A stretch of 64,000 nt of DNA, taken from Amycolatopsis thermophila (GTDB lineage Bacteria > Actinomycetota > Actinomycetes > Mycobacteriales > Pseudonocardiaceae). Below the pieces are notes generated by a model. That model was not told the DNA's origin. It made no database searches and saw only the letters and a list, made by a program, of their open reading frames with translations. This document shows, piece after piece, positions 21,973 through 26,805 of the stretch (its first letter is position 1; every line of letters starts with the position of its first letter). The DNA is taken from NCBI RefSeq assembly GCF_030814215.1, contig NZ_JAUSUT010000001.1, positions 5,084,001-5,148,000 on the forward strand, in the 5' to 3' direction. Made by a program: the position numbers and the translations under genes.

Positions 21973-23559
21973 CTTGAGTTTTAACCGGGTCGGCGGGGTC
22001 GTGGGTTGCTCGATTTGGTGTTCTTGCGGTGTTTCGGCTTTGGTTTGTTCGTGCTGGTGAAGGTGTGGACGTCGTGGCGTGAGGCGGGTCGTTGGTTGGG
22101 TGTTCCGGCTGGACGTCCAGGGCCTGGCCGCGAGGGTTTCGGGACGCCGGCGGGGCAGGCGAGTTGTGGACGTAGGTTCCGAAACCCCCGGCGGACCCTG
22201 GCCGGGGTGAGCCGCCTGGCTTGTCGGGGTTTCTCCCAAGGACGGCGCAGGTCCGCTGTGAGGTCACGGGCGAGGCGCAGCTGGGTGTAGGCGGTCAGCT
22301 GCAGCCAGGTCCAGCGGTCGGCCGCCTCGGGTGAGCGAAGTTTTGGGGTGGTCCAGCCGAGGGTTTGCTTGAGCATGCGGAAGGTGTGCTCGATGTCGAA
22401 CCGGCGCAGGAACGCCTGCCAGGCCAGATCAACCTCGGTGGCGTCCAGGCCGATGCGGGAGTGCCAAAGCCACACCGGTTTCGGGATCGCCCCGGAGGGC
22501 AGCCGGTGGACTTCGAGCCGGATCACGGTGCCCTCGATGATCGGCAGAGTGCCGTCGTGGCCGGCCCAGGCGATGCGGTGGGTCAGCCGTGGGTGCAGCC
22601 GATCCCACGCCCGGACCAGCGCGGGACCATAGAGCCGGGTCGTGGTTTCGGTGACGACGTCGGGATGCCCCCAGGTGGCCGGGTCGCCGAAAGCGAACTC
22701 GTCCCCGTGGCGACGGGGTCTGCCCAGCGTGCCGGGCGGCTGCGGCGGGACCGGGCGATGCAGGACCCGATCAGTGCGCATCCGCACCAGCACGGTGATC
22801 GGAAGATCGGCCAGCACGTGAGCCAGCCGGGGGCCGTCGTAGCCGGCATCGGCGACCAGCAGGATGTCCGGGTCTCCCGGCCGCCAGTGCCCGGCCGCGA
22901 CCAGACGGTCCACCACGCCGCGGATCTGCCGGGCGGTCACGCTCGCGGCGTTGTCGCCCGGCGCGAGCCGGACCGCGTCCAGCGGCGCGGTCCACGAACC
23001 GCGCCCTGATTCCAGCGCGACGACGACGGAGTAGGGCCAGCCCGGCACCATCATGTGCTGGTCTTTGCCGCGGCCGTAGGTGTGACACAGGATCCGTTGC
23101 GGGCAGGTGTGCGCTTCCGGACGCAACCAGCAGGTCACATCTACCGCCAGCACCAGCCGCCCGTCCGCGGCCCGCGGGATCGGCGCCGCGCTCAGCGCGG
23201 TCTGCAACCGCGGCACGTCCATACTGCCGCGCGCGAGTGCGGCATACCCACTGCCATACCCTCGGCGATGCTCGCCCGCCAGGGACAACTCCGCGACCGA
23301 CCGTACCGGCCCATCAGCACACAACACCGCGTCGGCCAGCTCGAACAACGCGTCCGCCCGCCGGTTCAAAGACTCATACACCCGCCGCCGGAACCTCGAC
23401 AGCTCCCCATTGGCACGCCTGTTACTGGCATCAGGCAAACTGATCACCGCAGCCCTTGATCGATCTTCCAACTGTCGCAAGAAGGAATGATCGACCAAGG
23501 GCTGCGTTCATGATCAACAGGGGTAGGCAAGACCACCCGAAGGTTAAAACTCAAGCTAG
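21969..23559 (-). mobile_element. IS701-like insertion sequence
   Basis: A complete-looking element of about 1.59 kb. Perfect 17-bp terminal inverted repeats, TAGCTTGAGTTTTAACC at 21970-21986 and its complement at 23542-23558, flank one transposase gene. CTAG occurs at both outer edges (21969-21972 and 23556-23559). That fits a 4-bp YTAR-type target duplication, as I recall for the IS701 family. It abuts the IS5 remnant on the left and an IS481 on the right. Confidence 0.75.
21981..23498 (-). CDS. DDE transposase of the IS701-like element
   Basis: About 505 residues. A DDE transposase core is suggested by LVLAVDVTCWLRPEA (first Asp), ILLVADAGYDGPRLAHVLAD (second Asp) and FDIEHTFRMLKQTLGWTTPK (Glu region). 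The basic C-terminal tail is rich in Lys, Pro and Arg. The start is uncertain: a TTG at 23496-23498 opens the frame and no in-frame ATG with a good ribosome binding site is visible. The TAA stop is supplied by the left inverted repeat (21981-21983). The gene appears intact. Confidence 0.78.
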   Translation of the reverse strand: MVDHSFLRQLEDRSRAAVISLPDASNRRANGELSRFRRRVYESLNRRADALFELADAVLCADGPVRSVAELSLAGEHRRGYGSGYAALARGSMDVPRLQTALSAAPIPRAADGRLVLAVDVTCWLRPEAHTCPQRILCHTYGRGKDQHMMVPGWPYSVVVALESGRGSWTAPLDAVRLAPGDNAASVTARQIRGVVDRLVAAGHWRPGDPDILLVADAGYDGPRLAHVLADLPITVLVRMRTDRVLHRPVPPQPPGTLGRPRRHGDEFAFGDPATWGHPDVVTETTTRLYGPALVRAWDRLHPRLTHRIAWAGHDGTLPIIEGTVIRLEVHRLPSGAIPKPVWLWHSRIGLDATEVDLAWQAFLRRFDIEHTFRMLKQTLGWTTPKLRSPEAADRWTWLQLTAYTQLRLARDLTADLRRPWEKPRQARRLTPARVRRGFRNLRPQLACPAGVPKPSRPGPGRPAGTPNQRPASRHDVHTFTSTNKPKPKHRKNTKSSNPRPRRPG

Positions 23560-24474
23560 CTGTGCTGTTCGGGGACGTTGGTGATGGGCTGACACGCTGA
23601 GGATGATCTTGATGTGGGTGAGGACCTCCGGGTTCGGTGTGGATTGCGACATCTGCACCCGAACACCAGGAGGTCCTCGATGGTCCACCGTAACGCGCTC
23701 TTGACTCCGACGGGTCGGCTGCGGCTGGCCCGGTGTGTCGTGGAGCAGGGGTGGTCGCTGCGGCGGGCAGCGGAGCGGTTCCAGGTCTCCCACACCACCG
23801 TGGCCCGCTGGGTGGGGCGTTATCGCGAGCACGGGGCGGCGGGCATGGTCGATCGGTCCAGCCGCCCGCACCACAGCCCGGGCCGTACCTCGCCGGAGGT
23901 GGAAGCGCAGGTGGTGGCGCTGCGCACCGAGCACCGGATCGGGCCGCTGCGGATCGCCACCCGCGTCCCGGTGGCCGCTTCCACGGTGTACCAGATCCTG
24001 CGCCGGCACGGCCTGCCGCCGCTGGCCGCGTGTGATCGGGCCACCGGCGAGTCGATCCGTCGTTACGAACGCGACCGTCCGGGCGAGTTGGTCCACGTCG
24101 ATGTCAAGAAGCTGGGCCGCATCCCCGACGGCGGCGGTCACAAGATGCTGGGCCGTCCCGCCAGTCGCGCGAATCAGGTACGCGCCCGCGGCGGCACCTA
24201 CCTGTTCCTGCACACCGCGCTCGACGACCACTCCCGCCTGGCCTACACCGAAACCCTGCCCGACGAGAAAGCCGTCACCTGCGCGGCGTTCCTGCGCCGT
24301 GCCTACGCCTGGTTCGCCCAGCACGGCATCACCATCGAACGCGTCCTGACCGACAACGCCATGGCCTACCGCAAAACCACCTGGCAGCAGGTCTGCGCCG
24401 AACTGGGGATCCAACGCCGCTTCACCCGCCCATGGCGACCCCAAACCAACGGCAAGGTCTGTGAAGACTTAGCT

Positions 24475-24650
24475 CGGTGCTGCACCGGATCGGTCTGACC
24501 CTGGTCAAGGTATGACCTATCGATAGTGGTGGTGTCCTGCGTTCGATTTGTCGGCCGGCTCCGGTGCAGCACTGTGGTGCGCACCGGCCAGGCGGAGCTG
24601 ACCTGATAGGAGCTTGGGCTAGAAGCCCCCGTCGCAGACTTGTCGCCCCG
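24475..24650 (+). ncRNA. Predicted IS110 bridge RNA
   Basis: Four guide-like segments occur in the order expected for a bridge RNA. caaggt (24506-24511) equals the left target at 24453-24458. gcgttcga (24539-24546) is the reverse complement of the right target at 25839-25846. ataggagc (24606-24613) equals the element's right end at 25830-25837. tcgcaga (24632-24638) pairs with tctgtga at 24458-24464 with one G-T wobble. A 13-bp perfect stem (24477-24489 with 24560-24572) encloses the target loop, and a GGGC/GCCC hairpin (24616-24628) sits inside the donor loop. The RNA boundaries are approximate. Confidence 0.75.
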
Positions 24651-24705
24651 CCCGGCCGGTTCGCTCCATCCGTGAGATCAGCCCTAACGGAGGAGCACAT
24701 CCAGC

Positions 24706-25824
24706 ATGACAACCCAGATGGCTATAGAGCCAGCAGCTGGTGCCGTGATCGGCGGCGTCGATACCCACAAGAACACTCACTACGCGGCGGCGGTCGATGA
24801 CCACGGCCGCCTGTTGGGTCATCGGGAGTTCCCCGCCAATGACCGCGGCTACGCCGACCTTCTGGCATGGGTTCAGGAACACGGCGAGGTAGGCGCGATC
24901 GGGGTCGAGAGCACCGGATCTTTCGGCGCCACGCTGACTCGGTTCCTTACCGCCCGGGAGATTCGCGTGGTCGAGGTCAACCGGCCCAACAGACTGGCAC
25001 GGCACATGGACGGCAAGTCCGATCGGCTCGATGCCGAGCAGATCGCCCGGGCTGTCCTCGGCCAGACTTCGACGGCCACCCCGAAAGCCAAGTCCGGCCT
25101 GGTCGAGGTCATCCGGACCCTTCGGGTGACTCGTTCCAGCGCAGTCAAGGCACGCACCAGCGCATTCAACACACTGTGGGGCGTCATGATCGGGTCACCC
25201 TCTCCGTTGCGCGACGAACTTGTCGTGCTGAGCAAGAAGACGCTGGTCAACCGATGCCTGCGGCTGCGGCCGGAGACGGAGGACCTGCTCGGCCTGGCAA
25301 CAACCCCAGGCCGGCTATTGATGGCCGGAGTCAAGGCCACCCTACGGGGCCTGGCACGCCGCTGGAAGCAACTCGATGATGAGATCAAGGCCCTCAACAA
25401 GCAGATCGGGGCCCTGGTCCACGCAGCGGCACCCGAACTGGTCGAACTGCACGGTGTCGGCGTCGAGATCGCGGGCCAGTTCCTCGTCACCGCAGGCGAC
25501 AACCCCGAACGCATCCGCAACGAAGCCGCCTTCGCCAAGCTCTGCGGTGTCGCGCCCCAGCCGGCCAGCAGCGGACGCACCACCGGCCGACACCGACTCA
25601 GCCGCGGCGGCGACCGCGCCGCAAACAGTGCCCTCTACATCGTCACGATCGTCCGGATGCGTCGCCACCAACCGACCCGCCACTACGTCGAGCGGCGCAC
25701 CGCCGAAGGCCTGCGCAAACGCGAGATCATCCGCTGCCTGAAGCGCTACATCGCCCGGGAAATCTATGCCAACCTTCCCCGACCATCCACGGCCTCCGTC
25801 ACACCCCCTCCGACAGCGGCTTGA
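24706..25824 (+). CDS. IS110-family transposase (DEDD recombinase)
   Basis: A 372-residue recombinase. The N-terminal RuvC-like domain has the acidic tetrad D19 (GGVDTHKN), E68 (GVESTGSFG), D106 and D109 (KSDRLDAEQ). A coiled middle region is followed by the C-terminal Tnp_20 domain with the helix-hairpin-helix-like LHGVGVEIAGQFL and the conserved serines S288/S289 in PASSGRTTG, one of which should be the nucleophile. The ATG at 24706 is preceded by cggaggagca. The gene is full length, so the element is probably active; enzymes of this family act with a bridge RNA. Confidence 0.92.
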   Translation: MTTQMAIEPAAGAVIGGVDTHKNTHYAAAVDDHGRLLGHREFPANDRGYADLLAWVQEHGEVGAIGVESTGSFGATLTRFLTAREIRVVEVNRPNRLARHMDGKSDRLDAEQIARAVLGQTSTATPKAKSGLVEVIRTLRVTRSSAVKARTSAFNTLWGVMIGSPSPLRDELVVLSKKTLVNRCLRLRPETEDLLGLATTPGRLLMAGVKATLRGLARRWKQLDDEIKALNKQIGALVHAAAPELVELHGVGVEIAGQFLVTAGDNPERIRNEAAFAKLCGVAPQPASSGRTTGRHRLSRGGDRAANSALYIVTIVRMRRHQPTRHYVERRTAEGLRKREIIRCLKRYIAREIYANLPRPSTASVTPPPTAA

Positions 25825-26019
25825 CGAACATAGGAGCATCGAACGCTTCCACCGCACCCTGCTCGAGGAATGGGCCTACCACCAGCCCTACACCTCAGAA
25901 ACCCACCGCCAAACAGCCTTCCCCGACTGGCTGCACTGGTACAACTACCACCGACCCCACACCGGCATCGACGGCCACACCCCAGCCAGCCGCGGCACCA
26001 ACCTCACCAAACAACACAC

Positions 26020-26805
26020 CTAGCGCGCTTCCCGCGCCGCCCACTCGCGTCGCCGGCGGGTCAGCACCTCGACCAGCTCACTCCGCCGTCGCGCGACCTC
26101 GTCGTAACTGCCCATGACCCCCACCGCGGCCACGGTCTTGCCCCCCTCGACCACGGCGACCGACACCCCGTCGGCTTCGGTCGACGCACCGGGCGCGGCC
26201 ACGAGACCGTCCCGCTGGATCTGCGCCAGATCGGCCAGGAACCGGTCCACGCGGTCCGTCTCGTCCGGCGGCAGCGCACTGATCTGCGCCCACAGGTCCC
26301 GCTTGTCCATCCCGGCCAGCAGCACCCAGCCGGTCGACGTCCGGATCAGCGAGCGCCGGACGAACCCCTCCGCGAGGTAGGCGTACCGCGGATCGGACGA
26401 GGCGTAGTCGACGTAGTAGAGGTCGCTGCCGACCACGATGGCGAGCACGGCGGTCATGCCCGTCTCGTCGTGCAGGGCCACCAGGTCCTCGTGCGTGACC
26501 GTGGTGACGGTGGGACGGCCGGCGAGCCGGGTGAGCAGGAACGGTGCCGGCCCCAGGGTGTAGCGGCGGTCGCGCTCGTCCAGGTAACCGGTCGCGACGA
26601 GCCCGTTGACCAGGCCCTGGATGGAGCTCAGGGGCGCGTCGAGCTCGCGGGCGAACTCGGTCAGCGTCGTCCCGTGGGTCGAGCGGGCTGCCAGGTCGAG
26701 GATCGTCGCCACCCGGTCGATCATCCGGTGGCGGGGCCTCGGGCGGCCATGCGGCGTGGGGTGCGTCGGCACGGCGTCGCTGCTTTCTTGATCGGTTGCG
26801 TTCAC
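26020..26805 (-). CDS. IclR-family transcriptional regulator
   Basis: A 261-residue IclR protein. The N-terminal winged HTH (about 28-90; MIDRVATILDLAARSTHGTT, then LTEFARELDAPLSSIQGLV) is followed by an IclR effector domain (LYYVDYASSDPRYAYLAEG, RTSTGWVLLAG). It is divergent from caiB-gcdH, with 58 bp between starts, and likely controls them. Its stop TAG lies inside the terminal CTAG of the IS481 element, so the last residues may have been set or kept by that insertion. Confidence 0.86.
   Translation of the reverse strand: MNATDQESSDAVPTHPTPHGRPRPRHRMIDRVATILDLAARSTHGTTLTEFARELDAPLSSIQGLVNGLVATGYLDERDRRYTLGPAPFLLTRLAGRPTVTTVTHEDLVALHDETGMTAVLAIVVGSDLYYVDYASSDPRYAYLAEGFVRRSLIRTSTGWVLLAGMDKRDLWAQISALPPDETDRVDRFLADLAQIQRDGLVAAPGASTEADGVSVAVVEGGKTVAAVGVMGSYDEVARRRSELVEVLTRRRREWAAREAR

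Follow-up and report, generated by a model that had tools for sequence, protein, structure and literature searches.

Bridge (or seek) RNAs are established, and their natural re-programming has been reported (PMC11187229). An RNA of 58-74 nt was sufficient for ISEc21, and the element provides a published precedent for catalytic transposase codons as a target (PMC11187229). For IS621, the top-strand cut is placed just 3' of the core (PMC11208158).

The element described here lies in the window (the whole 64,000-nt stretch of DNA analysed). Taken together, the data were best explained by a left end (LE) that very probably encodes a bridge RNA guiding insertion into codons of an IS481-type transposase. 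Sequence supports the element ends, the guides, the covariation of the fold, the covariation of guides with targets, and the positions of the sites; transcription, binding by the recombinase, strand exchange and a circular form would follow by analogy with IS621 and ISEc21.

Element ends, recombinase and junctions

The element was placed at 24460..25840 on the forward strand (1381 bp including the right-hand TC), its ends being set by alignment of four identical copies in the same genome, with diverging flanks. The four copies were identical over a stretch reaching at least 249 bases upstream of the start codon and at least 1137 bases downstream of that codon's first base. The LE measured 246 nt and the right end (RE) 16 nt, so that a long left and a short right non-coding end were present with the RNA in the LE, as in the IS110 group. 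Neither an RNA in the right end nor the sub-terminal inverted repeats of 7-17 bp of the IS1111 group were found, and assignment to that group was rejected because the RNA lies in the left end and the RE has only 16 nt.

The recombinase gene (24706..25824, forward strand; 372 aa) matched PF01548 with 80.5 bits (cut-off 29) and PF02371 with 60.4 bits (cut-off 21.3), the combination of a DEDD RuvC-like domain and a C-terminal PF02371 with conserved Ser that belongs to the IS110 group. Sequence comparison matched the protein to the IS621 and ISCro4 recombinases of known structure (E 1.8e-8 and 1.9e-7), and its VDTHK, ESTG, KSDRLDA and PASSG stretches aligned with motif regions of IS621 in phmmer; its N-terminal domain alone matched IS621 weakly (i-E 12, phmmer). 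A search for close relatives at E <= 1e-130 in 397 order-level and 394 class-level genomes returned the own genome alone, and of the 6 pattern-matching stretches in viral contigs none encoded a relative. A different IS110-type gene, not closely related, was observed in the own genome at 7021122-7021592 (L010; PF01548, 146.6 bits).

Target duplication and long terminal repeats were absent, and the core alone was common to the two junctions, as in the IS110 group. TC was the sole repeat at both junctions in the three G000 copies compared and likewise in the fourth copy; L015 and L077 were exceptions among the relatives. At these two loci (2257-2275 in L015, about 2228-2246 in L077) the left junction read AAAGCATC-TGTGA, against AAGGTC-TGTGA elsewhere, and the two extra bases looked like the CA of the right end remaining in the target. 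Two separate events seem likely because the host genes differ, and the extra bases may stem from an earlier excision that was imprecise, or from a CC core.

The right part of the element contained TTGACG (25821..25826, forward strand), a possible -35 whose promoter role would arise at the circle junction. TTGAC was present in 71 of the 73 right ends examined, which is compatible with a promoter possibly formed there.

The left-end RNA and its guides

The initial annotation had assigned a bridge RNA to 24460-24705. Its location in the left end stood; that interval is the whole left end, and the covariance-model match covered 24472..24663 only (forward strand; 171.9 bits, with the window sequence itself in the model). 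The enclosing stem claimed at the same time was confirmed by folding of the window LE (MFE -101.5 kcal/mol, z -4.16; none of 200 shuffles folded as well), and the identity as a bridge RNA was upheld by guide-like targets at the other copies and by covariation of guides with targets across families.

Rfam gave 0 matches at gathering score within the window, and the covariance model was therefore built from our own alignment. The consensus fold, built from 20 left ends (9 of the window clade and 11 others, including two closely similar G205 copies), comprised 37 pairs, 21 of them with compensatory changes on both sides. The internal loop of the first hairpin carried LTG on its 5' side and RTG on its 3' side, and the second held LDG and RDG, which is the two-loop RNA with the order LTG, RTG, LDG, RDG of the IS110 group. 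The target loop was closed by a small hairpin at 24514..24536 (forward strand; gac 24514-24516 with gtc 24534-24536), and the donor-loop stems were conserved. The interior of the small hairpin (24517-24533) was about 11 bases longer in the window copy and L017 than in other close relatives.

Within the window the model gave one other match, on the opposite strand (15.7 bits), which was noise, and in the own genome it gave exactly four, namely the four copies. Against 30 sources, which included copies of model members, 25 matches were strong (E <= 6.3e-11), L047 was weak, and L020, L021, L023 and L052 gave no match. Of 200 genomes of the same family, 58 had a match at E <= 1e-4. An anti-terminator or riboswitch-like leader was considered and rejected, since it leaves the guide-target covariation unexplained.

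All four guide-like stretches first annotated were read directly at their positions on the forward strand: LTG caaggt at 24506..24511, RTG gcgttcga at 24539..24546, LDG ataggagc at 24606..24613 and RDG tcgcaga at 24632..24638. Their assignment and order were borne out by the copies and by cross-family covariation, LTG and RTG also by the guide-target tests. The left target half with the core, caaggTC, was read at 24453..24459 and had the same position in the other copies; the core with the right target half, TCgaacgc, was read at 25839..25846 and checked in the other copies (both forward strand). The donor guides likewise fitted as annotated: LDG is identical to ataggagc in the right end (25830..25837, forward strand; read directly and in the copies), and RDG pairs with TCtgtga at the left end (24458-24464) with one G.T wobble. 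The perfect complement, TCACAGA, occurs in relatives, so the wobble is specific to the window copy. Among nine relatives with left ends 81-88% identical, gcgttcga was unchanged in 9/9 and caaggt in 8/9, LTG being caatgt in L017.

LE and RDG agreed in three variants in which copy comparison, not the guides, had set the ends: TCTGTGA/TCGCAGA (G000), ACAGTGA/TCACTGT (G283, G205 and G137) and ACTGTGA/TCACAGT (G088). In families with copy-defined ends, the RE motif and LDG had TAGG(A/G)GC in common. The co-change of LE and RDG and the conserved donor-loop stems speak against a short seekRNA in which only the target loop acts and the donor-loop matches reflect common ancestry of the ends instead of pairing; such an RNA would be in keeping with the 58-74 nt that were enough for ISEc21 (PMC11187229), and is very improbable here.

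The TC core proposed from the window alone recurred at both junctions of the window clade. G283, G205, G137 and G088 had AC at the left junction and TC at the right, and in 23 held-out guide sets AC prevailed at the left junction while TC stood at the right in 22 of 23, a count for which end-finding itself required the C. The core rule of the branch is xC, with the first base variable and the second C. LTG in the window reads T,A at the core, not T,C, and the second core base A mismatches the target C. Under the IS621 cut rule, the left junction would keep the core of the target and the right junction that of the donor, so that a match at the first core base would not be required.

Flanks of the four copies in the own genome matched the guides' CAAGGTCGAACGC at 13, 12, 11 and 10 of 13 bases, L009 being the weakest with 3 mismatches. 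Insertion of other copies into unrelated targets, named at the outset as evidence that would count against guiding, was thus not observed.

Guide-target agreement was scored for ten families in a fixed register, with one hand-chosen representative site each and six non-core positions per side. Own guides gave 98/120 non-core matches (LTG 54/60, RTG 44/60) against averages of 1.99 (LTG) and 1.58 (RTG) of 6, or 3.57 of 12 together, for swapped guides, and 0 of 200,000 label permutations reached the own total. The window target reached 11/12 with its own guides, and the guides of the other nine families gave it 7 at best. Fits were poor for L032 (RTG 2/6) and L051 (LTG 3/6). L037 was omitted because its anchor was not found (by manual reading LTG 5/6, RTG 3/6).

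A second test comprised 23 distinct guide sets outside the model with both ends placed, from 56 matches; 33 were dropped (RE end not found, 21; duplicate guides, 5; LE start not found, 4; already in the model, 2; left flank missing, 1). Own guides gave 212/276 matches (LTG 108/138, RTG 104/138), and swapped guides averaged 1.69 (LTG) and 1.54 (RTG) of 6. The own guide came first, ties included, for 21 of the 23 targets, and 0 of 200,000 permutations was as good. Because RDG and LDG served to locate the ends here, donor pairing would be circular evidence in this test and was not counted; target guides were unused for placement. Guides of L140, L177 and L049 were close to those of the model members L054, L060 and L051. 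Fits were poor for LTG in L043 (1/6), L169 (1/6) and L171 (2/6), and poor fits in other families arise in part from mis-placed ends or register.

A register-free best-match score with wobbles counted half, which left out L038 and L039 (no LE start), was too noisy, own guides often scoring no better and the top placement at many loci falling outside the guide, and was replaced by the fixed register. Searching the LE start by the RDG complement alone gave wrong positions at several window-clade loci, and narrower search ranges were then used.

Some insertion sequence families pick their targets by protein contacts, and the recombinase alone might read the target here, with the left end a structured leader and the target matches a coincidence or relic. 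This is scarcely credible, because guides followed unrelated targets while the recombinases stayed about 45-55% identical or more.

By the bridge RNA mechanism, the left end would be transcribed into an RNA bound by the DEDD recombinase encoded downstream. In the target loop, LTG would pair to the left of the core, on the bottom strand, and RTG on the top strand, starting at the core and running rightwards. The donor loop would pair with the joined ends of the element itself, its LDG with the right end and its RDG with the left. The recombinase would exchange strands beside the TC core, and the circular element would insert without target duplication. The target loop would spell N-G-K-V/I and then E-R of IS481-type DDE transposases, and insertion would split the gene, with the second Asp on one side and the presumed catalytic Glu on the other, thereby disabling the transposase.

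Transposase codons and other targets

The interrupted IS481-type gene consisted of a 5' part at 23614..24459 (forward strand; rve, LZ_Tnp_IS481), ending ...QTNGKV, and a 3' part at 25841..26023 (forward strand), starting ERFHRTL with the presumed catalytic Glu, so that insertion lay at ...RPQTNGKV/ERFHRTL... (a slash marks the insertion point here and below). Catalytic residues of transposases follow the DD(35)E rule, and for this reason the Glu past the junction is presumed catalytic; it lay 33-35 residues from the second Asp in 6 of 7 proteins, none being found in L012. The target codons were NGK(V/I)-ER of IS481-type transposases, just ahead of that Glu, and the predicted target sequence for the window element's RNA is GGCAAGGTCGAACGC. 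A second transposase gene (DDE_5/DDE_Tnp_1; 21981-23498, reverse strand) adjoins the interrupted one.

Thirteen distinct two-sided sites of the clade were scored (four in the own genome and nine in relatives; L035 repeats L019). Of 156 non-core-C guide positions, 133 were exact, 14 were G.T/G.U wobbles and 9 were mismatches, with the register shifted by two for L015 and L077 (two extra left-junction bases). The wobbles sat on K, V/I, E and R codon positions. A design of the guides for degenerate codons is only suggested, and synonymous change and transition bias could produce the pattern as well.

An rve-type domain above the Pfam cut-off adjoined 9 of the 13 sites (L007, L008, L011, L012, L013, L014, L015, L019 and L016). 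L077 had a weak rve match below the cut-off (E 0.014), NGKV was visible by eye at L006 (site outside the Pfam run), and no Pfam match was found beside the insertion at L009 or, on both sides, at L017. One-sided sites were in agreement by eye, with QGKV (L018), NGKV (L138) and NGKI (L139) on the left and ERFHRT (L023) on the right.

No exact match to GGVAARGTCGARCGC remained in the 7.3 Mb genome, so the two best genome sites were both occupied. With one mismatch there were 49 genome matches, against 36 for the pattern read backwards; the numbers of free sites are too small for claiming saturation.

A DDE transposase above the Pfam cut-off was present at the junction piece for 9 of 34 guide sets (window clade, L031, L051, L049, L042, L046, G088, L169 and L026). 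L031, L051 and L049 adjoined rve; in L031 and L051 the insertion point preceded the Glu by four codons, a site with which L146 and the one-sided L033 agreed. Insertion was in DDE_3 at ...VCDN/YGPH... (L042), in DDE_Tnp_4 at ...FYSG/KHKLHG... (L046), in DDE_Tnp_1 at ...ATRYD/KL in four of the five G088 copies, and in Transposase_mut at ...TNAI/ESLN... (L169, from G082) and near the N-terminus (L026). The fifth G088 copy (L069) lay elsewhere, with no Pfam match. L043 adjoined Transposase_mut in opposite orientation, its left end being uncertain, and the L029 site matched a Mu C-terminal domain at E 0.01. Seven different motifs, drawn from five DDE families of Pfam, were represented among the transposase targets, and several of them lie on presumed catalytic residues or no more than a few codons away. 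Where they go beyond the Pfam labels, the names IS481, IS3, IS256 and IS630 presumably apply.

Twelve model matches occurred in G082, and the three fetched copies (L168-L170) had the same left flank, with an IS256-type gene cut at TNAI/ESLN; these copies may have spread together with the IS256-type element. Guides of L060-L065 and L177 matched a palindrome-like repeat, GTTGCGAAAGCCAC/TTTCGCAAC, recurring beside the copies.

No Pfam transposase was found for 24 of the 34 guide sets (25 with the uncertain L043) at the tested pieces, one or few open pieces per family, so that these absences are soft. Together with other branch members lacking an adjoining transposase, and with G205 and G283 copies, which by our own reading adjoin short repeats or palindromes, they favour a working RNA that has no function against rivals and for which transposase codons are abundant, harmless, multi-copy and horizontally spreading landing sites. 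The spread of the targets over seven motifs and five Pfam DDE families, with several motifs near presumed catalytic residues, weighs against landing sites of this kind but is not decisive by itself; the chances of this explanation are about even. It is tentatively proposed that this widespread actinobacterial IS110 branch is an RNA-programmed hyperparasite, repeatedly re-aimed at conserved, often catalytic DDE codons, with wobble-tolerant letters facing variable codon positions and with insertion giving both a safe multi-copy home and a knock-out of the competitor's transposase. If the transposase theme is selected, the elements would be RNA-guided brakes on other mobile DNA, which suggests one way in which insertion sequences may limit each other.

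Comparison with known systems

As a bridge RNA the present one is ordinary, and the choice of target is its notable part. The branch offers a natural guide/target series, with one RNA scaffold and 34 distinct guide sets with sites, that is directly usable. Its core rule, xC, differs from that of IS621, and its target is set at the level of conserved protein codons.

IS621 (Durrant et al. 2024, PMC11208160; Hiraizumi-type structures, PMC11208158) likewise has an LE-encoded RNA with target and donor loops, and shares with the window element the order and sense of LTG, RTG, LDG and RDG and the DEDD recombinase. Both have a non-CDS RE of few bases (PMC11208160). The IS621 core is CT and that of the window element TC, and cores of the branch have C in the second place and a variable base in the first; IS621 targets REP whereas the window element has a protein-coding target, and sequence identity between the recombinases is low. 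The CT core of the IS621-type subgroup, whose second T is nearly invariant, was not found here (TC; AC/TC in most other families), and the difference from IS621 noted in the initial annotation was confirmed by TC at the junctions of the window clade. The element is a member of the IS110 group outside the CT-core IS621 subgroup.

IS4321/IS5075 of the IS1111 group, cited in PMC11187229, are also IS110-superfamily elements specialised on another mobile element; they differ in having sub-terminal repeats and in their target, which is not a set of catalytic codons but the terminal inverted repeat of Tn21-type transposons.

ISEc21 (Siddiquee et al. 2024, PMC11187229) is IS110-type like the window element; its RNA likewise lies upstream of the recombinase gene, and its guides follow the same order. 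In contrast to ISEc21, the window element is targeted ahead of the third (E) residue of IS481-type transposases, its host group is actinobacterial, and several sister elements carry guides for other transposase motifs. No earlier report of a branch-wide transposase-targeting theme was found in the open-licence PMC literature. Catalytic transposase codons are known as a target for one element, and the branch-wide targeting of several such motifs is the addition made here.
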